A stretch of 48,980 nucleotides of DNA from a virus. The notes under the pieces are model-generated. The model had not been told where the DNA came from, did not search any database, and saw nothing but the letters and a program-made list of their open reading frames with translations. This document shows positions 7,207 to 47,008 of the stretch, one piece after another. The translations under genes were made by a program, and so were the position numbers. Every line of letters begins with the position of its first letter. Within the stretch, counting starts at the first letter, position 1. Location of the stretch: the IMG/VR virus record IMGVR_UViG_3300046530_000361, positions 1 to 48,980 of that record, one strand, 5' to 3'.

Positions 7207-8984
7207 CCCTTAACCCTCCACACGCGAACTCGGCAGGGAAGCGACGAAATTCCGGTCCCTACATTCAAAGATGTTGAACCGCCGCCCAATTGATACCCAA
7301 TCAAAAGCGAGTTGCTTCCGGTAGATGTTCGTATCGAGTCAGCCCCCTGCGAAGCCTTAACGCCCGATCCGTAGCTGTTGTTTGAGTACCATCCAGGGGA
7401 GACCCATTCTCCACCTTGCAGCACTTGAGCCTCACAAATTACCGGGTGACCCGGAAAAGGGTTAGGGTTTACGTACTGGCTAGATACCGCGACTACTGCG
7501 GGGGATGCCTCGCTGCCGCCATTTGGATACACATACGCAAACCCCAGAGAGGTATCCAAAGTCTGAATCTGACTCGACTGATTACTCACCGTCGTAGCCA
7601 GCGCCGTCACGTCTACCGATCCTGGGTTTACCGCCTTGCCCGCCCCGACCGTACACCAGATAACGGTTTCGTTTGATCCACGTGTTTCAGTGCCTGTGCG
7701 GGCAACACGAGATGCGTCAAATCCCCATGTATACCCAGCCGCCGAAACTGGCGATGGGCGGGCTCCTACAGAAACGGCGTTACCTACAAACGCTCCGGTT
7801 GCATCCGTAGGATTGATCATTGCCACCGAGCTTGAGACAACCGAGCCCGTAATATTTTGCAACTGGTCTGTCTGATGCAACCCAGGCGTGCCCGCCGAGT
7901 TCTTGCCATCTCCCCGCAATACCATGGCCGCAATCGTGTTGCCGTCGGCGTGCCTCGCATTGGTGTCCGGCATGCGGAATGTGGTCGATCCATCGCCGCT
8001 GGAATACCTGCCGCGGGACGTGTAAGGCGACGCAAGCCAAACGGCATCCGTCACTGAGCTTGCAGAAACCAGCGCCCAAAGACCAGGCCAATCGGCCCGA
8101 TTGAGCAGTTGGCCATCACGGGCAATCCAACCGGCAGGTATTGTCGCCCGAGAAACGGACCATGGCACGATAGATCCAACAGGAATTCCTACGCCTGCTT
8201 CCTTGTATACGCCTCCCGCAGTTAGAAACTTATCCTGGTCGCCGGGAACAGCAGCGGGAACCAGCCCCTTTTTGCCCGCGACAGTTGCCGTGGCGCCGAC
8301 CATAGTTGCGATGCCTTGACGCAGCTTGTCGAATCCGTCCGTAGTAATCGCGAGAAGCGAAGTGATGTCGTTATTATCACCGCTTGCTGCTTTACCTTCA
8401 GTGACCTCCTCAGCGCGATCTGCTGAGTCTTTAGCTGCAGCCGCCGAAGCTGCCGCCGCTTGCTCCGACTGGATAACAGAATCACGCGCTGTTTCGGACC
8501 GATCGGCAGCCTCACCGGACGCCTGGGCCGAGTTCTGGCTTTGCTGAGCCGCCAGTTGCGCGGCGTTCTTGTTGTCGGTGGATGCCACAGCGGCAGCGGT
8601 TGCGATGTCCGCCTGCTCAGTGGCCACAGCCTTCGACTGCCCTGCTGACTGTGCCGCCTCGGTTGCAGCCGCAACCTGCTCCTGCATGTCAGCAACGCCA
8701 CTGGCGATCACCTTGGTGGCGGCTCGCAACGCGTCAGCTGAGTCTTTGACGTAACCCTGCATCGGCGCGAGGGAGTAGCCGCCCGCGGTCACAGCAAGGC
8801 CCTGGTAATCTGGCGCAATCGAGAGCGCCGTATTACTGGCGATATTGATGACTTCGTACCACTCACCGTCAGGCCCGCGGAACGCATCACCGACGCGAGC
8901 GTTCGCGATGAAGGATGTTCCAGTGCCGAGCACGGCATTGCTGCCAGGTGTCACAGCAACTGTGCCTGTTTTGTACCAGGTCAT
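7203..8984 (-). CDS. Tail fibre protein with collar-type domain
   Basis: The 593-residue protein is modular. Residues 1-78 form a beta-rich N-terminal attachment domain. About 80-200 is an Ala/Gln/Ser-rich helical region (many AA, AQS and AADR repeats) expected to be a trimeric coiled coil. About 268-345 is a phage collar-like domain (VGSIVPWSVSRATIPAGWIA, DGQLLNRADWPGLWAL). The C-terminal 150 residues are Gly/Ser/Asn-rich and probably form the receptor-binding tip. It should recognise the cell surface. It is followed by its putative assembly chaperone. Confidence 0.88.
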   Translation of the reverse strand: MTWYKTGTVAVTPGSNAVLGTGTSFIANARVGDAFRGPDGEWYEVINIASNTALSIAPDYQGLAVTAGGYSLAPMQGYVKDSADALRAATKVIASGVADMQEQVAAATEAAQSAGQSKAVATEQADIATAAAVASTDNKNAAQLAAQQSQNSAQASGEAADRSETARDSVIQSEQAAAASAAAAKDSADRAEEVTEGKAASGDNNDITSLLAITTDGFDKLRQGIATMVGATATVAGKKGLVPAAVPGDQDKFLTAGGVYKEAGVGIPVGSIVPWSVSRATIPAGWIARDGQLLNRADWPGLWALVSASSVTDAVWLASPYTSRGRYSSGDGSTTFRMPDTNARHADGNTIAAMVLRGDGKNSAGTPGLHQTDQLQNITGSVVSSSVAMINPTDATGAFVGNAVSVGARPSPVSAAGYTWGFDASRVARTGTETRGSNETVIWCTVGAGKAVNPGSVDVTALATTVSNQSSQIQTLDTSLGFAYVYPNGGSEASPAVVAVSSQYVNPNPFPGHPVICEAQVLQGGEWVSPGWYSNNSYGSGVKASQGADSIRTSTGSNSLLIGYQLGGGSTSLNVGTGISSLPCRVRVWRVKG

Positions 8985-35448: not shown

Positions 35449-36242
35449 TGCGCCGCCCTCTTCGCTTCCAGTTCCTGAGCTTGCTTGAAGAGCAGCGCCC
35501 TGCGATCCGCCAACTCATTTGCCGCGTCAATCCGCATTTCGGTTTTCCGTTCGGCACTGGCCTTGCGCATTTCCAGCATCGAGTTTTTCACCAGTTCCAA
35601 CTTCTGCCGAAGCTGGGGCTCTGGCCGTGTGACGGTGCCCGTGAGTAAGCCGGCGATGGCGCGACCGTCCTCAGTGATCGGCTCGACGCTCAGGTCCGTC
35701 AGGTACTTCTGTGCGTGTTCGCGCGGGATTCTCTTCAGCTCCATTGCCTTAGTCACAGCCTGCACGCGACGGTTTGCGTCGAAACCCACGGACACGTGCC
35801 AGTTGACCGGTTTCGCATCCTCGCGGGCCTGGCCCACGAACCGCTGGTAGGCGTCGATGAACGCCATGCGAGCGCCGATTTTGTCGCCGCCATCCAAGAT
35901 GGGTTTCGCGGCAGCCAGTGCCAGCTGGATCTCGTCGGTCAGCACCACAGTTTCGAATTCATCGTTGGTGGTCATGGCGATTGCCCAGGCCTCGTCCTTG
36001 CCCGGGCGCCCGTCGGAGGACTGAACACGCTGCAGGATGTCAGCCATTGCCAGCTTGCCCTTCACCTCGAAGCGGCAGGCCTTCAATGCGGCTTTGACGA
36101 CGGGCACCGGATACGCGCAGAGGTCTTCAGCCATCATCGCGGCAGTGCCCGGGTTCATTTCCTGGCCCATGGCCTCGGCTGTGGCGCAGATGGCGGCGGC
36201 CAATCCGGCAACCTGCTGGTCATTCATTTCAAAGGTATTCAT
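35445..36242 (-). CDS. Putative replication accessory protein (helicase loader-position)
   Basis: The start at 36242 (MNTFEMNDQQVAGLAAAICA) is chosen for its AGGTGA site, giving 265 residues. It is helical, with a conserved-looking EMNPGTAAMMAEDLCAYPVP and CRFEVKGKLAMADILQRVQS at the N-terminus and a long charged coiled coil at the end (MEMRKASAERKTEM region). It follows the initiator gene with a short overlap, the place of lambda gpP. A helicase-loading role is an inference; no AAA+ motif is present. Confidence 0.55.
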   Translation of the reverse strand: MNTFEMNDQQVAGLAAAICATAEAMGQEMNPGTAAMMAEDLCAYPVPVVKAALKACRFEVKGKLAMADILQRVQSSDGRPGKDEAWAIAMTTNDEFETVVLTDEIQLALAAAKPILDGGDKIGARMAFIDAYQRFVGQAREDAKPVNWHVSVGFDANRRVQAVTKAMELKRIPREHAQKYLTDLSVEPITEDGRAIAGLLTGTVTRPEPQLRQKLELVKNSMLEMRKASAERKTEMRIDAANELADRRALLFKQAQELEAKRAAQ

Positions 36243-37158
36243 TGCGGTCACCTGCTTGGCGTTTGGCCAAAACCATCTGGGCGGCCTGTTCTGCTGCGGA
36301 GTGGTTCGCCTCTGTCCGTTCCATCTGGCGGGCGGTTGTGCCGTTGATGCGCTGACCGGTCACCCACTGGGTGTGATAGCTCTCAGCGTTGGCCAGCAGC
36401 TCGTTGAGGCTGTGGCACTTGCGCAGCACAGCGGCGTCGCTGGTTTTCAGGAAGTGGGCAGCGACGTGGTGGGCGACGTCGGCGCCGAGCCGGTCAACCA
36501 GTTGGCCGAGCTGGCCACCGACCTTGGCGTTCCACACCGGCCAAGCGCTGTAGCGCTTGCGGTAAGCCATGGCGTAGTTCGCCCAGACCTTGAAGGTTTT
36601 GCAGGTCTGGTCTTTGGGGCCCGGCATGTCGGCGGGGATCTCAACCCGTGGGGCATCGGTGCGATCAACCACTAGCACCAAGCCGCGGGACTGAGCCGGC
36701 ACAACCTCGGCGGAGGCCGGGGGTGTAATTGGTTCAATGACCGGTTCCATGACTGGTTCAAGAGAGTTACTGATTCTGGGTGCAGCTGCTGCACTACCCC
36801 CTGGTGCAGGAGATTCACTAGGGGGTGAACCTGCTGCACTACCCGGGTGAATCTTCTGCGCTACCCCTGGTGCAGGAGGTGCACCACCCCCGTCGAGGGT
36901 GAGGAAGTAAACGTTCGACGAATTCCCCTTCGGACCACCCTTCCGGATTTCCTTGCGCAACAGTCCCGCCTCACACAAGGCTGTGATGTGATTCATGACA
37001 GAGCGCTTGCTGATCTCACACTGGTCGGCGATATGCTGATAGGACGGCCAGCACTCGCCTACGTCGCTGGCGTTGTCGGCCAGCTTGATCAGGACAAGCT
37101 TGCGCAATGGATTGCCGACGCGAAGCTTCATTGCGGCGACCATAAGGCCCATGCTCAC
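36229..37158 (-). CDS. Replication initiator (lambda gpO-like, HTH_36 type)
   Basis: The GTG at 37158 overlaps the upstream stop (GTGA) and has GAGGTG before it, giving 309 residues. The N-terminal 85 residues form a winged helix (SYQHIADQCEISKRSVMNHI, TALCEAGLLRKEIRKGGPKG). A Pro/Ala/Gly-rich linker (about 88-130) is encoded by the iteron-like repeats. The C-terminal half (KTFKVWANYAMAYRKRYSAW) would contact the helicase loader. This is the lambda O layout: DNA-binding domain, origin inside the gene, protein-contact domain. Confidence 0.82.
   Translation of the reverse strand: MSMGLMVAAMKLRVGNPLRKLVLIKLADNASDVGECWPSYQHIADQCEISKRSVMNHITALCEAGLLRKEIRKGGPKGNSSNVYFLTLDGGGAPPAPGVAQKIHPGSAAGSPPSESPAPGGSAAAAPRISNSLEPVMEPVIEPITPPASAEVVPAQSRGLVLVVDRTDAPRVEIPADMPGPKDQTCKTFKVWANYAMAYRKRYSAWPVWNAKVGGQLGQLVDRLGADVAHHVAAHFLKTSDAAVLRKCHSLNELLANAESYHTQWVTGQRINGTTARQMERTEANHSAAEQAAQMVLAKRQAGDRNEYL
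36779..36896 (-). repeat. Iteron cluster, probable phage replication origin
   Basis: A unit of the form CTGCACTACCC (with variants) occurs at 36789-36811, 36834-36853 and 36856-36877. The first and third continue with TGGTGCAGGA, and GGTGCACCACCCCC follows. Each unit holds partial inverted symmetry (CTGCACTACC... GGTGCAG). The cluster lies inside the initiator gene in the low-complexity linker, as the lambda origin does. Confidence 0.55.
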
Positions 37159-38018: not shown

Positions 38019-38636
38019 TCAGGCTATGGATTTCAGTGGGCGAGCCGACGCGAGCAGTTGCTCTGCTCTACGCCCCAACTCCCCCGCTTTCGCCTCAACC
38101 TGGCGGCATTGCTTCGCGAACGCAGGCAAGTGCGGCAGGTCCTGCTCGCACATCACCTGGTCATCGAACACTTCGCTGCCGGTGTCGATCACATCGCCCA
38201 GCGCGCGGATCAGCGCACCGAAGCTTTTGTTCGCACATTGGTCGCTGGTCATCTGACGGGCGCCGGTCAAGCCGTGGCGGCTCGCCAGTTCGTTCAGGCA
38301 GTGATCGCGGTATTCAGGCTCAAGGGCGTTGACCCACGACTCTTCCAGCCAGGACGGCATTTCCTGATCGCCGGACAGCCAGCGCTGAACACGCTTGAGC
38401 CAGCGGCCGGTAGCCTTAATGAACTCGCCCACGTCGTTCAGGCGAGCCAGCTCTTCGAAGTCCGGGACTTTCGCGTCTTTGATCTTCGCGGCGGGCACGG
38501 TCAGGTAGATCTCACGGCTCAGCGCCTGGGCGAAGTCGTCCTGGCTCAGACTGGTGCGTGCAATCTGGTTTGCAGCGTGTGCGACCAGCACCTGATCACG
38601 AGTTTGTACGGTGTGTCTGGAACTGGACGTTTGCAT
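38019..38636 (-). CDS. Early phage protein downstream of cro (unknown)
   Basis: The 205-residue protein (MQTSSSRHTVQTRDQVLVAH...) is helical, with KDAKVPDFEELARLNDVGEF, TGRWLKRVQRWLSGDQEMPS and GLTGARQMTSDQCANKSFGA. It has no membrane segment. It lies directly downstream of cro, the position of cII-type regulators in lambdoid phages. The C-terminal helices (ALIRALGDVIDTGSEVFDDQ) could tetramerise. I recognise no family, so a regulatory role is only positional. Confidence 0.6.
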   Translation of the reverse strand: MQTSSSRHTVQTRDQVLVAHAANQIARTSLSQDDFAQALSREIYLTVPAAKIKDAKVPDFEELARLNDVGEFIKATGRWLKRVQRWLSGDQEMPSWLEESWVNALEPEYRDHCLNELASRHGLTGARQMTSDQCANKSFGALIRALGDVIDTGSEVFDDQVMCEQDLPHLPAFAKQCRQVEAKAGELGRRAEQLLASARPLKSIA

Positions 38637-38690: not shown

Positions 38691-38906
38691 TTATGCGGCC
38701 ATCTCGGCCCATGGAAACGACGGACAAAGGGATTCTTTTTTGAAAGCACCTCCGGTCAACGCCTCCGCTCGCTTGGCAACCACTGGAGACATGCCGTGCT
38801 TCTCGCGAACCCAACCGGAAACGGTGCTTTGATCAACCTTGAGCTTTTCGGCCGTGACCTCCTGAGTGCCGAAGAAGGCAACGAGGTCCTTATAAATAGT
38901 GTTCAT
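38691..38906 (-). CDS. Cro-like repressor
   Basis: The 71-residue protein starts at 38906 (MNTIYKDLVAFFGTQEVTAE), after GGAGG with a seven-base gap; the longer frame runs through the operators and is rejected. Residues 15-33 form a helix-turn-helix (VTAEKLKVDQSTVSGWVREK), followed by MSPVVAKRAEALTGGAF. Divergent from cI over an 87-base operator region, it is the Cro of this phage, binding the same operators in reverse preference to favour lysis. Confidence 0.88.
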   Translation of the reverse strand: MNTIYKDLVAFFGTQEVTAEKLKVDQSTVSGWVREKHGMSPVVAKRAEALTGGAFKKESLCPSFPWAEMAA

Positions 38907-38918
38907 GCTGCCCCTCCA

Positions 38919-38982
38919 TACGGGAATACCCATATAGTAGGTTATGGGAATACCGATTTGCAAGGATATGGGAGCACCCGTA
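38919..38982. promoter_or_regulatory. Immunity region: three operators and divergent cro/cI promoters
   Basis: Three similar sites lie exactly 24 bp apart: TACGGGAATACCCATA (38919-38934), TATGGGAATACCGAT (38943-38957) and TATGGGAGCACCCGTA (38967-38982). The palindrome TTGCAA (38958-38963) can serve as the -35 box in both directions. Rightward it pairs with TAATAC (38981-38986, 17 bp) for cI. Leftward it pairs with TACTAT (38934-38939, 18 bp) for cro. Operator 3 covers the cI spacer and operators 1-2 the cro promoter. Confidence 0.8.
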
Positions 38983-38993
38983 ATACTCGCCGG

Positions 38994-39662
38994 ATGGAAT
39001 TCAAAGATCGTTTAAAGGCAGCGCGCCGGCACGCCAAGCTCAATCAGGGCGAATTGGCCGCTAAAGCTGGTATCACGCAGACGTCGATTTCTGACCTTGA
39101 GCGTGGAAAATCGAAAGCCACCGCACACGTCGTGAAGATCGCCGACGCATGTGGGGTGAGCGCCAAATGGCTCTCAGACGAGATCGGGCCAATGCTGGCT
39201 ACTGGGTTAACGTCCGGCTCTGGTGAATCGAACGTCTCCCCCGCCGCGCAACCCACCAAATCATTCCGCTACCCAGTAGTGAGCTGGGTTGCCGCCGGTG
39301 CCTGGGCGGAAGCAGTGGAGCCCTACCCGGCCGGAATCTCGGACACCTACGAGTTTTCGGAGTACGACTCCAAAGGCCCGGCGTTCTGGCTGACGGTCAA
39401 AGGTGACTCGATGACAGCGCCCGCCGGCCAGAGCATCACCGAGGGCACGCTGATCTTGGTGGACACTGAGGCTGAAGTTGCACCAGGTAAGCTGGTGGTG
39501 GCCAAGCTGCCGGACAGCAATGAAGCCACATTCAAGAAACTGGTGAGCGACGGCGGCCGGCTGTTCCTGAAGCCGCTGAATCCGAGTTACCCGATCGAGG
39601 CTGTCGACGAGAACTGCCGGATCGTAGGCGTGGTTGTGCAGGCGCTGCAGAAGTTTTACTGA
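38994..39662 (+). CDS. CI-type lysogeny repressor (LexA-like autoprotease)
   Basis: The 222-residue protein (MEFKDRLKAARRHAKLNQGE) has an XRE helix-turn-helix at residues 4-60 (LAAKAGITQTSISDLERGKS). It also has a complete S24 peptidase domain: probable cleavage bond Ala101-Gly102 (WVAAGAWAEA), Ser139 in VKGDSMTAPAG and Lys181 in ATFKKL. RecA-stimulated self-cleavage would link induction to DNA damage. The ATG has no ribosome site and lies only seven bases after the -10 box, so the mRNA from this promoter is probably leaderless, as for lambda cI from PRM. A long frame reading in from 37827 is not the real start. Confidence 0.92.
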   Translation: MEFKDRLKAARRHAKLNQGELAAKAGITQTSISDLERGKSKATAHVVKIADACGVSAKWLSDEIGPMLATGLTSGSGESNVSPAAQPTKSFRYPVVSWVAAGAWAEAVEPYPAGISDTYEFSEYDSKGPAFWLTVKGDSMTAPAGQSITEGTLILVDTEAEVAPGKLVVAKLPDSNEATFKKLVSDGGRLFLKPLNPSYPIEAVDENCRIVGVVVQALQKFY

Positions 39663-39901
39663 TGCCATCCGCCCTTGGAAAGCCATCGACCTCTTGGCGA
39701 GAGCAGAGCTTTTGGAACAAGGTGTGGACCTATGCCCTGCTTGCGCTCATGGTGGTTTTCACAGCCGAAGCTGGAATTTGGCCGGACGGCAGTTCATCCC
39801 ATCGCAAGCGGGTCTTCAGCCCAGGCTTCGTTGTGGTCTGCGTTTTCGTGGCCGTGGTTGAGCTGATAGCGCTGAACCACTTCTATGGCGCGACCGGATG
39901 A
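39662..39901 (+). CDS. Small membrane protein coupled to cI
   Basis: The ATG overlaps the cI stop (TGATG), so translation is coupled to the repressor and the protein would be made in the lysogen. It has 79 residues with two hydrophobic helices (VWTYALLALMVVFTAEAGIW and FVVVCVFVAVVELIALNHF) separated by a charged loop (SSSHRKR). Small membrane proteins expressed with the repressor often exclude superinfecting phages (Sie-type); that is an inference. A terminator follows at 39954. Confidence 0.65.
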   Translation: MPSALGKPSTSWREQSFWNKVWTYALLALMVVFTAEAGIWPDGSSSHRKRVFSPGFVVVCVFVAVVELIALNHFYGATG

Positions 39902-40111: not shown

Positions 40112-40516
40112 CTAGATTTTTGTCGAGCCTGCCGAGTCGTAACGAGCACGGGCTGCATCAAGAGCGGGAAAATGATACTCCGCCCACCGATCCAGCGCTG
40201 TAAGCGTATCAACCAGAGAAAGCGCTACCGGGTTGAGCCGATATTCAACGTGGATAGGCCTATCCGATATCTCTCGTCGCTCAAGCAAACCGTTCCGCTC
40301 AAGCTTCTTGAGGGTTTGCGTTAAAACCTTCTGAGAAATACCCTCAATTTGCCTAAGCAGTTCACCGTTGCGCATGGGGCGCTGAGCAAGAGCAGGCACT
40401 ATTAACATCACCCACTTTCCAGAGATGAGCTCCAGCGCGTCACGCGCTGAACAATTTTTTGAATACACGTTACCAGGGTGCGCCAAGGTGGTTACCTCCA
40501 GGTGCGTAATTGCCAT
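40112..40516 (-). CDS. HxlR-family transcriptional regulator
   Basis: The 134-residue protein has the HxlR winged helix: conserved Cys22 (YSKNCSARDALELISGKWVM), the recognition helix region (MRNGELLRQIEGISQKVLTQ), and the wing (LKKLERNGLLERREISDRPI). HxlR proteins typically sense electrophiles or quinones through the Cys and control divergent redox genes. Here the divergent neighbour is a quinone reductase, an ideal target. Together they form a two-gene cargo cassette unrelated to phage growth. Confidence 0.9.
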   Translation of the reverse strand: MAITHLEVTTLAHPGNVYSKNCSARDALELISGKWVMLIVPALAQRPMRNGELLRQIEGISQKVLTQTLKKLERNGLLERREISDRPIHVEYRLNPVALSLVDTLTALDRWAEYHFPALDAARARYDSAGSTKI

Positions 40517-40563: not shown

Positions 40564-41295
40564 ATGCATGTTCTTATCGTTTTAGCCCACCCTGACAATG
40601 AGTCCTTTAACAGCCAGTTAACCGCAGCAGCCAGATCTGCTCTTGAAGCGGCAGGGCACGTGGTAACTATATCTGACCTCTACGCCGCGAAGTTCGATCC
40701 AGTAGAAGACGGTCAGCATTACGGTGATCGCCTGAACACGCAGCAATTTGTTGCGCTAGCGGAGCAGCGCCACGCCAGCAAGAATGGCACTCTGCCGAGG
40801 GACGTACAGCTAGAAATTGAAAAACTCGAAGCTGCAGATCTCGTTATCTTGCAGTTTCCACTTTGGTGGCACGGCCCTCCCGCCGTTCTGAAAGGCTGGT
40901 TTGATCGAGTCTTTGTTTCTGGCCATCTCTACAACAGTAAAATGCGATACGAAACAGGCTATTTTCGGGGAAAGCGGGCAATCGTATCAGTCACGACTGG
41001 GGCACCTGCTTCGGCTTTCGGGCCTGGCGCCAGAGGCGGGGAAATGGGGGTGATGCTTTGGCCTATCCACTATTCTCTACATTATCTAGGATTCTCAATT
41101 CTTGCACCTGAATACCATTTCGAGGTCTCAGGACATGGCTATAGTTATAGTGAAGAGTCTGAAAATCAGAAGCGACTACAGGCTAACATTGAGGATTGGT
41201 CTAAACGGGTAGCTCATCTAGATTACGAAAGAACGCTTACTTTTTCGGGTTGGGCTGACTGGGCAGAAGACGGGAGTTCCAAATCACCTAATTGA
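40564..41295 (+). CDS. NAD(P)H dehydrogenase (quinone), flavodoxin-like
   Basis: The 243-residue protein (MHVLIVLAHPDNESFNSQLT) has the flavodoxin_2 fold of NQO1/MdaB-type enzymes. Markers are the N-terminal VLAHPDNESFNSQL phosphate-binding loop, QFPLWWHGPPAVLKGWFDRV at 97-116, and VSVTTGAPASAFGPGARGG. It would reduce quinones or similar electrophiles by two electrons with FAD/FMN and NAD(P)H. The HxlR gene lies 47 bases upstream on the other strand, and their shared promoter region should hold the operator. It is lower in GC than phage genes around it. It may give the lysogen resistance to oxidative or quinone stress. Confidence 0.88.
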   Translation: MHVLIVLAHPDNESFNSQLTAAARSALEAAGHVVTISDLYAAKFDPVEDGQHYGDRLNTQQFVALAEQRHASKNGTLPRDVQLEIEKLEAADLVILQFPLWWHGPPAVLKGWFDRVFVSGHLYNSKMRYETGYFRGKRAIVSVTTGAPASAFGPGARGGEMGVMLWPIHYSLHYLGFSILAPEYHFEVSGHGYSYSEESENQKRLQANIEDWSKRVAHLDYERTLTFSGWADWAEDGSSKSPN

Positions 41296-41657: not shown

Positions 41658-41698
41658 TTGCCAAGAAATGTCAGCGCAAATACTGTGTATGCATACAG
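41658..41698 (+). promoter_or_regulatory. LexA-controlled promoter of the DUF1654 gene
   Basis: CTGTGTATGCATACAG (41683-41698) is a perfect LexA box, extended to a 26-bp palindrome from AAATA to TATTT. TTGCCA (41658-41663) and TACTGT (41681-41686) have 17-base spacing, so the LexA box covers the -10 box and the start of transcription. Confidence 0.88.
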
Positions 41699-41717
41699 TA
41701 TTTGCAAGGAGCGAAGC

Positions 41718-41969
41718 ATGAACCAGGCACCCTACCCCACATCCAAACCGAGAAATTCCTACGAGCTTGTGGGCCACCGCCTGCAACGCTTGATCGCATC
41801 CCCCCGGGTACAGCGGATTCAGTTGGTTGAGGTCTCCAGGCGCGACGATGAAAGCCCTGAAGCCTGGCGCCAGGTGATCCAGGATATCGGCGACACCGCA
41901 GGCATAAGGATCGAGCATCTGGATGATGGTGCCGTCCGGATCGGCTGGCGCGAGTACTGCGATTCCTAA
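41718..41969 (+). CDS. DUF1654 family protein, SOS-regulated
   Basis: The ATG at 41718 has AAGGAG before it; the longer frame upstream crosses the LexA box and is not real. The 83-residue protein contains the DUF1654 pattern: SYELVGHRLQRLIASPRVQR, then VEVSRRDDESPEAWRQVIQD and HLDDGAVRIGWREYC. The family is Pseudomonas-restricted in my knowledge, and members with LexA boxes are known. Its role is unknown. It is one of two LexA-boxed units in this prophage. A terminator follows at once. Confidence 0.85.
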   Translation: MNQAPYPTSKPRNSYELVGHRLQRLIASPRVQRIQLVEVSRRDDESPEAWRQVIQDIGDTAGIRIEHLDDGAVRIGWREYCDS

Positions 41970-41997: not shown

Positions 41998-42014
41998 TCG
42001 CCGCCCATAAAATA

Positions 42015-42057
42015 TATGGGAATACCCATTGACGATAAATATGGGAGTGCCTATATT
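42015..42057 (+). promoter_or_regulatory. Second CI-controlled promoter (two operators) of the rightward early operon
   Basis: TATGGGAATACCCAT (42015-42029) and TATGGGAGTGCCTATA (42040-42055) match the three cI/cro operators and are 25 bp apart. They overlap a very good promoter: TTGACG (42029-42034), 17-base spacer, TATATT (42052-42057). CI bound here would block the whole 42397-48142 operon, so it acts like lambda PL/OL. Confidence 0.82.
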
Positions 42058-42063
42058 TGCATC

Positions 42064-42396
42064 CATCGAGACGCCACTGCGAATCGCCAGAGCCGAAGGC
42101 TCGAAGCTCTTTAGCGACACCCCTTGCCGGATCACCACCGGCCCAGATTCAAAGGCAGCGATGAACCGGCCTAAACGGTTCAGAGGGTTGGCAACTGACC
42201 CGGGCGTGCAGCGTAAAGCGCCAAGAACAGTTATCCAGCGGGAGAACAAGCCGAAAGGCCCGCGGCTGGAGTGACATTTGATTCAAGCCGGTGACCGACG
42301 CCAGTAGCGGGTCCCGGCGGAAGTTTTCACTGATGCACCCAGCTGCAGCTCGGTCGGGTGCATTGGGAAAACAACCGATCAAGCACGGAGCACCAA
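42064..42396 (+). promoter_or_regulatory. Long untranslated leader with hairpin
   Basis: About 330 bases separate the promoter from the first well-supported gene. I see no convincing gene here; a frame starting at 42041 would begin upstream of the transcript. An 8-bp stem ATGCACCC/GGGTGCAT (42333-42340 with 42356-42363) lies 24 bases before the ribosome site of the next gene and could affect its translation. An early antitermination site could also be present, but none is recognisable by eye. Confidence 0.4.
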
Positions 42397-43170
42397 ATGA
42401 GCGAGCAAACACTTCAATCCATGCTGATGGATGGCGTAACCCGATTCACAGACGGCGCCAAGCCAGCAGAAATCATCGATAAGCATGTGGAAAGCATGTT
42501 CACCGACATCATCAAAGACAACTTCCGCAGCTACAGCGACATGGGCAAGCTGGTCAGCCAGGCCATTAAAGACGCGCTGCCATCCAACGTGAGCGATCTG
42601 TTTGAGCTGACTCGCTACAACGACCTGATCGCCACCGCATTGAAAACACAGTGGGAGTCTTCTGGCGTTACTGGCGAAATGCTTCGTCGTTCGCAAGCAG
42701 CGATCGACGATGCGCTGAAAGACGACATCGTGCCGGAATTCGTAAACCTGAGCGATTTGCTGAATGCCTTCATCGAAGAAAACAAAGAGCGCGCAACAGA
42801 CGAGCAATGGGAAAGCCCGCACATCACCATTCGCGAGGCTGAAAACGACTACATCGGCAGCAGCAAGCACATGCACATCTGCTTTGACCCACAGCCGGAA
42901 GAGCGCAGTTCGTCATCTCGATACTCCTCTGGTACCAAGCGCACCGAATGGGAGCTGGCCAATCGGATCAGCATCAGCGTCAAGGGCCAGAACGAGCGGG
43001 GCTACGACTTCGGTGAGGTCTACAGCGCGAAGCTGGACGGCGCACCCATTGGCCGCAACTTCATGATTTACAAGAAGTGGGAAAAGCTCACTGCGGCCCT
43101 CTACTTCGGTGGTGCCAAGCTGGTGATCGATTGCGACGAGCACGATTTCAGTTATGGCCTGTACGACTGA
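42397..43170 (+). CDS. Phage early protein (257 aa), unknown function
   Basis: The ATG at 42397 follows CGGAG by six bases. The 257-residue protein (MSEQTLQSMLMDGVTRFTDG...) has a helical N-terminal half (EIIDKHVESMFTDIIKDNFR, ... SDMGKLVSQAIKDALPSNVS) and a beta-rich C-terminal half (SPHITIREAENDYIGSSKHM, YDFGEVYSAKLDG, LVIDCDEHDFSYGLYD). It has no catalytic motif I know. As first gene of the CI-repressed operon it would be made strongly at induction, and may modify host functions. Confidence 0.65.
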   Translation: MSEQTLQSMLMDGVTRFTDGAKPAEIIDKHVESMFTDIIKDNFRSYSDMGKLVSQAIKDALPSNVSDLFELTRYNDLIATALKTQWESSGVTGEMLRRSQAAIDDALKDDIVPEFVNLSDLLNAFIEENKERATDEQWESPHITIREAENDYIGSSKHMHICFDPQPEERSSSSRYSSGTKRTEWELANRISISVKGQNERGYDFGEVYSAKLDGAPIGRNFMIYKKWEKLTAALYFGGAKLVIDCDEHDFSYGLYD

Positions 43171-44610: not shown

Positions 44611-45705
44611 ATGCTCGCAGCAATTGCAGATCGCATCCGTTCCAAGTCCTACGAACTTCCCCTGTCCCGCGATTACGTCCGCCACTGGGGCCTGAAAGAG
44701 GCCATACGGGAGCTGGTACAGAACGCCCTGGACAGCGAGTCGCCGTTTGAATATGCCTTCGCCGAAGGCCAGCTATTCATCACCAGCCGCTTTGCAAGGC
44801 TGGAGGCCAGCACCCTGGTGCTGGGCAGCACGTCCAAGTCTGATCGCGCCGATGCCATCGGTAGCTTCGGCGAGGGCTACAAAATAGCCCTGCTGGTACT
44901 GACCCGGAATGGCTACGACGTGAAGGTGCTGAACGGAAACAAACAATGGGTACCAGAGTTCCGGCACAGCGACCAGTTCGACGCCGAAGTGTTATGCATC
45001 AACGAGACCCCGGCGCACCGGCAGAATCAGGGCGTTGAGTTCGTTGTCTCCGGTCTCACTGAGGATGACGAAGCGGAAATCCGCAGCATGTGCCTGCGCA
45101 TGCAGCCGCCAATGAGCGACGTCATCGGCACCAAATACGGCCACATCCTGCCTTCCCGGCCGGGGAAGCTCTACGTCGGCACGCTCTTCGTGTGCGACAC
45201 CGACCTGACCTACGGCTACGACATCCTCCCCGAACACCTGCAGCTTGAGCGTGATCGCCAGACGGTCAGCGGTTGGGACTTGAAACAGGTATCTAAAAAC
45301 GCCTGGATCGACACCGGGCGCCTTGATGAAGTGGCGGAGAAGATCGAGGCAGGAATTCCGGACGTTGAATACGTCGGGTATGGCAGCACTGAGCTTGTGA
45401 AGGAGGCCTGCTACAGGTTGTTCCAGCAGAAGCACCCCGGCGCCATTGCAGTTCAATCCCAGGAAGAGCTGAACAGCCTGGTCAAGCAGGGAATGACCAA
45501 CACCGTAGTGGTGAGCCGGACCTTCCACTCTCAGGTTTCAAACTCGACTTCGTACAAGCAGCAGGTCTCCCACGTCGTTGCCATCCAGACGCCCAAAGCC
45601 GCCTTGGAAGAATGGTATCGCGACCACAAAAAATACATGAGCAGGCTGCCGTCGGCTTCCTTCAAGGAGCTGGCCAAGCGTGCTGACAGCTGGAGGAACA
45701 AGTGA
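44611..45705 (+). CDS. GHKL-type ATP-binding protein
   Basis: The start at 44611 has GGGAG before it, giving 364 residues. The N-terminal 110 residues show a GHKL (Hsp90/MutL-like) ATP site: N-box AIRELVQNALDSE with Glu34, Asn38, Asp41, and glycine lid ADAIGSFGEGYKIALLVLTR. The usual DxGxG motif between them is not visible: the expected place reads FARLEASTLVLGSTSKSD. The rest holds YGHILPSRPGKLYVGTLFVC and YGYDILPEHLQLERDRQTVS. It precedes the annealing recombinase with overlapping stop/start, so a role in DNA processing is likely but unproved. Confidence 0.75.
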   Translation: MLAAIADRIRSKSYELPLSRDYVRHWGLKEAIRELVQNALDSESPFEYAFAEGQLFITSRFARLEASTLVLGSTSKSDRADAIGSFGEGYKIALLVLTRNGYDVKVLNGNKQWVPEFRHSDQFDAEVLCINETPAHRQNQGVEFVVSGLTEDDEAEIRSMCLRMQPPMSDVIGTKYGHILPSRPGKLYVGTLFVCDTDLTYGYDILPEHLQLERDRQTVSGWDLKQVSKNAWIDTGRLDEVAEKIEAGIPDVEYVGYGSTELVKEACYRLFQQKHPGAIAVQSQEELNSLVKQGMTNTVVVSRTFHSQVSNSTSYKQQVSHVVAIQTPKAALEEWYRDHKKYMSRLPSASFKELAKRADSWRNK

Positions 45706-46448
45706 TGTCTGAGAACACCAGGATATGGGATCAGGTCGAAACTACCGACCCCGAGGTCACCAAAAAATTTACGGGCGCAGGCGGTTTCAAGGGGACCGCC
45801 ATCAGGCCCACTTACCTGATGCATCGGGCCACAGAGCTGTTTGGCCCGTGCGGTGAAGGCTGGGGCTGGACAGTTCTTGAAGATCGCTTTGACGAAGGCG
45901 CGCCCCTTCAGGCGCCAACGAAAGAATGGCCTGGAGCGCCAATGATCTGCGCGAAGGTGCATACCGTAAAGGTAGAACTTTGGTACACGGGCAAGGCCGG
46001 GCAGAAATGCACAATTCAGCAGTACGGCCACACACCATTCGTGTACCTGCAGCAGGGGAAAATCCTTACTGACTGGGATACGGCGAAAAAGTCTCTCACC
46101 GACGGCATCGGTAAGTGCCTGCAAGCCCTGGGCTTCGCAGCTGACATTTATCTGGGCATGTTCGACGACCCCACCTACGTCGACACCATCACCGAAGAAT
46201 TCAAGATTGAGAAGGCTGAAGACAAAGACGCCGAAATTCTGCGCCAAAAACAGGAGCGCATTGACTGGCTCGCCTCGGCTGTCGAGACCATCGGCAAGGC
46301 GGTAACCGCCTACGAGCTGAAAACACTGAATGTGAAATACATTCGTGAGGCAACACGCCGCAACGAGCCGGCTTTCATCGCGCGGATCACCCGGGCGTTC
46401 GAAGAGCGTAAAGCCACCCTGGAAAAATTGACTGAGGATGCAGCATGA
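45705..46448 (+). CDS. Putative single-strand annealing recombinase (DUF1071/Sak3-like)
   Basis: The ATG at 45705 overlaps the preceding stop and has GGAGG upstream, giving 247 residues. The pattern IRPTYLMHRATELFGPCGEG, WGWTVLEDRFDEG, then a beta core (CTIQQYGHTPFVYLQQGKIL) and DTAKKSLTDGIGKCLQALGF, ADIYLGMFDD matches the Rad52-like annealing proteins of phages. These coat single-stranded DNA and anneal homologous strands. The C-terminal third is helical and charged. No paired exonuclease gene is visible in the window. Confidence 0.7.
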   Translation: MSENTRIWDQVETTDPEVTKKFTGAGGFKGTAIRPTYLMHRATELFGPCGEGWGWTVLEDRFDEGAPLQAPTKEWPGAPMICAKVHTVKVELWYTGKAGQKCTIQQYGHTPFVYLQQGKILTDWDTAKKSLTDGIGKCLQALGFAADIYLGMFDDPTYVDTITEEFKIEKAEDKDAEILRQKQERIDWLASAVETIGKAVTAYELKTLNVKYIREATRRNEPAFIARITRAFEERKATLEKLTEDAA

Positions 46449-47008
46449 CTCAACTCTACGCACTGACCGGCAAGCTGGCTGAGCTCCAGGCCATGACCGA
46501 CACCGATGATGAGGGCCTGAAAGAGGCTCTTCAGCATGCCATGGACGAAGTGCAAGGCGACTTCAACGACAAGGCCGACAACATCGTCATGTTGCGCCGG
46601 AACATTGAAAGCGACGTGACGGCCATCGACAACGAAATCGAGCGCCTTGCTGAACTCAAGCGAATCAAGTCCAACAGCGTTTCGCAGATCAGCGACTACC
46701 TGCGCCGCAACATGGAAGCCGCCAACATCAAGTCGATCAAGCGTCCGCTCTTCACCATCACGCTGGCCATGGGCAGCGAACGAGTGATCGTGGACAACGA
46801 AGATGCAGTGCCGGACGAACTGACCACTGTGAAGTCGAGCATTGCTCCGGACAAAAAGGCCATTGCCGCCAAGCTCAAGGAAATCCGCGAGCATAACGAA
46901 GCGGTGCGCAAGCGCGTGGCAGCCGGTGAAGACGCTGAACACGAACTTTTACCCGAACCTACCTGGGCTCACTTGGAGCGCGGCGACAGTTCGATCCGAA
47001 TCAAGTGA
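46445..47008 (+). CDS. Siphovirus Gp157 family protein
   Basis: The 187-residue protein has a long helical hairpin (LKEALQHAMDEVQGDFNDKA, then SDVTAIDNEIERLAELKRIK) followed by LRRNMEAANIKSIKRPLFTI, TLAMGSERVIVDNEDAVPDE. This is the Gp157 pattern. The family is thought to inhibit or guide host nucleases in a Gam-like way. It overlaps the recombinase gene by four bases, which fits a recombination and DNA-protection role. Confidence 0.82.
   Translation: MTQLYALTGKLAELQAMTDTDDEGLKEALQHAMDEVQGDFNDKADNIVMLRRNIESDVTAIDNEIERLAELKRIKSNSVSQISDYLRRNMEAANIKSIKRPLFTITLAMGSERVIVDNEDAVPDELTTVKSSIAPDKKAIAAKLKEIREHNEAVRKRVAAGEDAEHELLPEPTWAHLERGDSSIRIK

Follow-up and report, generated by a model that had tools for sequence, protein, structure and literature searches.

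In the window analysed here (the whole stretch of 48,980 nucleotides), a pair of sites resembling the cI/cro operators is present at 42015–42057, about 3 kb from the cI/cro region. The question raised by this locus is whether the CI repressor, besides acting at its own operators, also governs a second early operon from this pair. Here we report that the region is very probably (about 0.93) the OL/PL element of a mirror-oriented immunity region of the lambda/D3 type in a Pseudomonas phage; CI bound there to OL1 and OL2 would block the rightward early operon. The observation holds, and a system of known kind explains it well: the OL/PL arrangement as such is not new, being that of lambda in mirror orientation. 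The leader RNA of the PL transcript may be the part that is new.

Operators and promoters

The regulatory elements of the two regions are as follows.

42015–42030, no strand: operator OL1, TATGGGAATACCCATT, overlapping the −35 element of PL (site match, OR-trained matrix, relatives)
42040–42055, no strand: operator OL2, TATGGGAGTGCCTATA, in the spacer and −10 element of PL (site match, matrix, relatives)
42029–42057, + strand: promoter PL, TTGACG-17-TATATT (promoter scan; conserved in relatives)
38919–38934, no strand: OR site TACGGGAATACCCATA, overlapping the −10/start region of the leftward promoter PR
38943–38958, no strand: OR site TATGGGAATACCGATT, lying 24 bp from the adjacent site within the spacer of PR (leftward)
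38967–38982, no strand: OR site TATGGGAGCACCCGTA, within the spacer of PRM, the promoter that reads rightward into cI
38958–38986, + strand: putative PRM, TTGCAA, 17 bp, TAATAC (read from the sequence)

The initial annotation had described TATGGGAATACCCATT and TATGGGAGTGCCTATA as repeats of the cI/cro operators, and both the coordinates and the resemblance were found to be right. The 49-kb window was searched for TAYGGGNNNNCCNRTA with at most one mismatch, which recovered five operators and one weak site at 7440, while the reversed pattern, used as a control, gave zero matches in the same window. A matrix trained on the three cI/cro operators only was then scanned over about 49,000 positions and assigned 21.5 bits to OL1 and 15.9 bits to OL2, which places them second and fifth in the window; the next position reached 10.8 bits. 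The top match in dinucleotide shuffles had a mean of 12.2 bits and a maximum of 17.0 bits, and the OL2 score was attained somewhere in 49 kb by 4 of 100 shuffles, so that OL2 by itself scores only moderately above chance. Centre spacing is 24 and 24 bp within OR and 25 bp within OL. The number of strong OL sites in the window is two, compared with three in lambda. A third was considered at 42004–42009, where the half-site CCCATA stands alone and is without a CTTAT counterpart in relatives of operator type B (defined below); it is not claimed.

The near-consensus promoter said to carry the pair is present as described, with a −35 element TTGACG (42029–42034), a spacer of 17 bp, a −10 element TATATT (42052–42057) and a sigma-70-type score of 10/12. 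The scan gave three matches over 4.8 kb, of which this is the best, while 2.3 would be expected from shuffled sequence; taken alone, the match would not be significant.

At the other operator set, the position of the TACGGGAATACCCATA site, −75 relative to the cI ATG, is the same in 24 loci of operator type A. The palindromic TTGCAA of PRM, which is kept in types A, B and D3, can double as the −35 element of leftward PR (18 bp to TACTAT). Transcription of lambda cI from PRM begins at about its own ATG. The PRM start in the window is expected at about 38993 and the cI ATG lies at 38994, so the cI transcript may be leaderless as in lambda.

Gene layout

The genes identified in the two early operons, together with cI, are as follows.

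36229–37158, − strand: O-like replication initiation protein, PR operon (phrog_391, E = 8.9e-66)
38019–38636, − strand: CII-like activator (phrog_4834, E = 1.7e-49)
38691–38906, − strand: cro (phrog_35, E = 3.8e-14)
38994–39662, + strand: CI repressor, 222 aa (HTH_3 and Peptidase_S24)
42397–43170, + strand: first long gene of the PL operon, function not assigned (phrog_2600, E = 1.7e-61)
45702–46448, + strand: exonuclease-family gene, PL operon (phrog_7838, E = 1.6e-81)
46445–47008, + strand: Gp157/Gam-like gene, PL operon (PF05565, E = 5.2e-32; phrog_253, E = 1.1e-42)

The PR operon extends leftward of OR and comprises cro, the CII-like activator, a Rha-type gene, the O-like initiator and NinG, whereas the PL operon runs rightward from about 42064 with the phrog_2600 gene, the exonuclease-family gene and the Gp157/Gam-like gene. 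cI is situated between the two operator sets, with cro-CII-O on one flank and the recombination genes on the other. This is the lambda layout in mirror image, which identifies the rightward early operon of the initial annotation as the PL operon.

In the window, as in lambda, repressor sites lie on divergent early promoters flanking cI and cargo, the replication genes are found on the side of cro and the recombination genes opposite, paired sites stand about 24 bp apart, cI is probably leaderless, and the PL leader has a boxA. The window differs from lambda in its mirror orientation, in an OL of two evident sites at 25-bp spacing (three in lambda), in a cargo of 1.2–8.6 kb, in an SOS-type DUF1654 gene that abuts OL, and in a leader whose boxA follows a hairpin and precedes a structured RNA; moreover, no boxA was seen on the PR side over 2.5 kb, and no N gene was recognised.

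Co-switching of operators and repressor

Relatives were gathered with CI as query, which yielded 80 loci. The operators before cI fall into type A (TAYGGG-N4-CCNRTA), type B (ATAAG-N4-CTTAT) and type C (TTAAG-N4-CTTAA). The CI C-terminal domain is 93–94% identical across the three types, and the N-terminal domain has an identity to that of the window of 52% in type B and 26% in type C. The window CI (38994–39662) and those of two relatives (L030, L076) represent natural domain swaps, with three DNA-binding domains on near-identical C-terminal domains.

An OL pair was present in each type A or type B locus whose sequence extends 5 kb or more beyond cI (25 A, 35 B). OL type equalled OR type in 60 of these 60 loci, with a pair spacing of exactly 25 bp, although the loci are related and amount to about 6–12 independent tests (the switches), not 60. 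Type A retained an OR of three sites at 24 bp and an OL of two sites at 25 bp in its 25 loci, OR and OL of type B had switched together in 35/35, and type C carried a matching OL triplet in nine of ten loci, the tenth of which ends 2.6 kb after cI. The last TT of OL1 begins TTGAC and the TATA of OL2 begins the −10 element in types A and B, an overlap kept by almost all of the 60 loci. In a tree built from the 330 bp that adjoin OL, the type switches at least six times when only supported branches are counted and 12 times when the best tree is taken; this count is its only informative output because one label served both traits. The loci found via the leader show further OL specificities, and three of these, in L151, L146 and PseuP_224, are accompanied by a matching OR-like cluster in the same locus.

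The proximity of the PL score to the number expected by chance would by itself suit chance repeats on a chance promoter, but this explanation, to which we assign a negligible probability, is refuted by conservation in the relatives, where exact 25-bp geometry and matched specificity recur in 60 loci. What is observed is that the sites match, that they overlap the promoter, that their geometry is conserved and that OL switches together with OR and with the DNA-binding domain of CI. OL behaves as a small exchangeable module obliged to match CI. Since the OL sites match the repressor's own OR sites in every one of the 60 loci, a single repressor almost certainly shuts both early operons. The coevolution of OL, OR and CI thus gives strong support to the proposal that the rightward early operon has a second operator pair for CI on its promoter.

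The pair might instead serve primarily Cro or another regulator, for example the product of the DUF1654 or HxlR gene (listed below), with control by CI incidental. Cro reads the same sites as CI in lambda, and by this precedent it is also a likely binder in the window and could be a second user of the sites. OL specificity, however, changes along with the CI N-terminal domain and OR, and neither of the other two genes follows the switch, as the DUF1654 gene spans types A and B and HxlR is missing from nearly all relatives; control by their products is ruled out on this ground. We regard a primary role of any regulator other than CI as very unlikely.

According to the preferred reading, CI dimers on OL1 and OL2 would cover the PL −35 element and the spacer/−10 region, and OL-bound CI would block the rightward early operon (recombination and other genes) in the lysogen. 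The three OR sites would likewise block leftward PR (cro, CII, O), and neighbouring CI dimers would be expected to cooperate. Upon SOS induction, inactivation of CI, which has an S24 peptidase fold, would open both operons.

CI control of both operons may extend to a DNA loop of about 3 kb in which CI joins OL and OR, with stronger repression and control of PRM. The repressors of lambda, HK022 and phiKO2 all loop OL to OR, and such looping was suggested by its authors to be widespread (PMC8053113). Sites paired at 24–25 bp would permit contact between dimers, and the CI C-terminal domain, the bearer of such contacts in lambda, is the part that stays constant across immunity types. The distance between OR and OL varies from 1.2 to 8.6 kb, however, so that no particular loop length is selected, and only two OL sites are evident, while a third pair adds stability in lambda. 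By analogy, we consider a loop somewhat favoured.

These data establish how the repressor is wired in a Pseudomonas prophage group that is widespread, and they constitute a natural experiment, in which the C-terminal domain was kept, the DNA-binding domain was swapped, and two operator sets kilobases apart were switched to match. Immunity groups, and hence superinfection immunity and prophage induction, become predictable from sequence.

The island between OR and OL

The features between cI and OL are given below.

39662–39901, + strand: putative membrane protein of 79 aa, after cI (hydrophobic stretches)
40112–40516, − strand: HxlR regulator, cargo (PF01638, E = 9.8e-22)
40564–41295, + strand: Flavodoxin_2/quinone reductase, cargo (PF02525, E = 3.5e-47)
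41683–41698, no strand: LexA-like box CTGTGTATGCATACAG, preceding the DUF1654 gene
41718–41969, + strand: DUF1654 gene, directly left of OL (PF07867, E = 1.4e-19)

All genes that had been placed between the operator sets, namely cI, a membrane gene, the HxlR-quinone reductase pair and an SOS gene (the DUF1654 gene behind its LexA-like box), were located there. The notion that they form a lysogenic island bracketed by repressor sites needs to be divided: the sites do flank the island, but its contents are variable cargo. The HxlR/quinone reductase pair is present in only 1 of 59 other related islands (L010), and the 79-aa membrane gene, which has no Pfam match, has relatives in 31/59 and is a common cargo after cI. 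The distance from the cI ATG to OL1 ranges from 1.2 to 8.6 kb (median 4.0 kb). Variable distance and variable genes together identify the island as a cargo slot, which is thereby delimited by OR and OL; to call the cargo genes lysogenic genes is a reasonable guess from their position.

The DUF1654 gene adjoins OL in 59 of 60 loci, usually behind the LexA-like box, which lies 331–340 bp before OL1 in most relatives; the gene and a terminator left of OL are common to types A and B. This unit (41683–41969 in the window, including the LexA-like box) remains constant beside an operator that swaps its type.

Comparison with other phages

D3, PMG1, PP9W2, F10 and VB_EV13 possess a 25-bp OL pair of their own specificity, TATGRG-N4-CTCATA, 0.75–1.0 kb after the cI start. 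D3 has three annotated OR sites 24 bp apart, a triplet at 24-bp steps that is also found in the window, and D3 and PMG1 carry a matching 25-bp pair on a TTGACA promoter that lies about 1 kb past cI and is followed by a boxA; the PMG1 record annotates a promoter at the place of the OL pair. The differences lie in the TATGRG-N4-CTCATA operators and the much shorter cargo of these phages. The GenBank features of D3 in the stretch examined include three OR operators and no marked left operator, and the literature searched, which did not include the D3 genome paper, contained no D3 operator study. The window has the D3-like layout, with an OR triplet at 24-bp steps, an OL pair at 25 bp and a TTGAC promoter.

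PseuP_222 agrees with the window in the layout of the OR triplet and in an OL pair of the same specificity and 25-bp spacing, but its OL is 4.8 kb from cI and is not adjoined by a DUF1654 gene. The number of OL sites varies among relatives, with three in type C, F10 and VB_EV13, and the two sites of the window are therefore compatible with a lambda-type OL/PL, a class for which the three sites of lambda are no requirement. The three sites of F10 and VB_EV13 (L090, L092) are located 735–799 bp after the cI start and are 22 and 25 bp apart; the F10 leader is without boxA.

The PL leader

Two elements of the PL leader are concerned.

42105–42113, + strand: boxA-like AGCTCTTTA, preceded by a small hairpin
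42119–42245, + strand: structured, pseudoknotted leader RNA, model R1 (covariation; cmsearch, 152 bits)

Exact CGCTCTTTA occurs in 45 of 65 leaders, 29–68 nt past the −10 element, with 0.0003 expected per 150-bp leader; 13 further leaders retain CTCTTT, and the window copy reads AGCTCTTTA. On the PR side, the 2.5 kb next to cI contain no exact CGCTCTTTA on the corresponding strand. The gamma-proteobacterial boxA consensus is GYTCTTTAANA (PMC5725501), which is fitted best by the D3-type copies, and the window copy departs from it after GCTCTTTA. With respect to boxB and N, a small hairpin stands before boxA, and no N-like gene was recognised among the PL-operon proteins scanned. A small basic open reading frame (about 42162–42274) was considered as an N-like protein and set aside, as this stretch is covarying RNA with indels between relatives.

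The R1 structure consists of five helices, one of which is a pseudoknot, and 95.0% of cells are paired in 29 diverse sequences. Compensatory changes on both sides were found in 13 of 25 pairs. Covariation was 0.276, whereas shuffling gave 0.119 and sliding the structure gave no more than 0.080, the slide control being favoured because the structure was derived from the same 29 sequences. No source contained more than one match to the covariance model; all matches were in sense with PL, and none lay on the PR side. Copies are present in 32 of 60 type-A/B leaders, in three type-C loci, in PseuP_224 and, as one weak copy, in L050, as well as in 8/8 Pseudomonas genomes tried. R1 follows directly after prtR, behind a boxA, in a tailocin-like prophage (L096). 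The leader RNA and the other leader modules had no match in Rfam at the gathering threshold.

HK022 put RNA is about 70 nt long with two stem-loops (PMC9378689). The window resembles HK022 in that a structured RNA opens the PL transcript and no N protein is recognised in the phage, whereas the window RNA, compared with put by its published description, has 127 nt, four helices and a pseudoknot, and lies next to boxA. It does not qualify as put, an RNA of about 70 nt with two stems that acts without Nus sites, as size and structure differ.

The combination of boxA and R1 RNA is a candidate antitermination leader. More specifically, we tentatively suggest that the PL transcript could bear a new class of processive antitermination leader, with boxA followed by a portable pseudoknotted RNA of 127 nt, although we hold this to be rather less than an even chance. 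The module is shared by Pseudomonas phages of many immunity types and by tailocin-like loci; if the suggestion is true, it would let polymerase read through the early operon with no N protein involved. The structured PL leader next to boxA would be a testable new antitermination element.

The boxA and R1 module also occurs in L227, L228 and L232 and in L229, L233 and L234, Pseudomonas genome loci that either resemble the tailocin-like one or have no assigned identity. In other phages the place behind boxA is taken by two or more further structured RNA families: A1 (L015, L025, L043, L054, L056, L058, L062, L065), in whose alignment 16 of 51 pairs had changed on both sides, and A3 (L007, L026, L052 and others). 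Proteo-phage-1 RNA (RF03044) is present in a related prophage (L043, 2698–2774, − strand). Directly before the first PL gene, the window has a hairpin (42322–42380) flanked by TTCACTGA and TTGGGAAAACAACCG, and hairpins with other stems occupy this place in many relatives. A tRNA gene is located at 861–944 of the window (RF00005, 53.6 bits).
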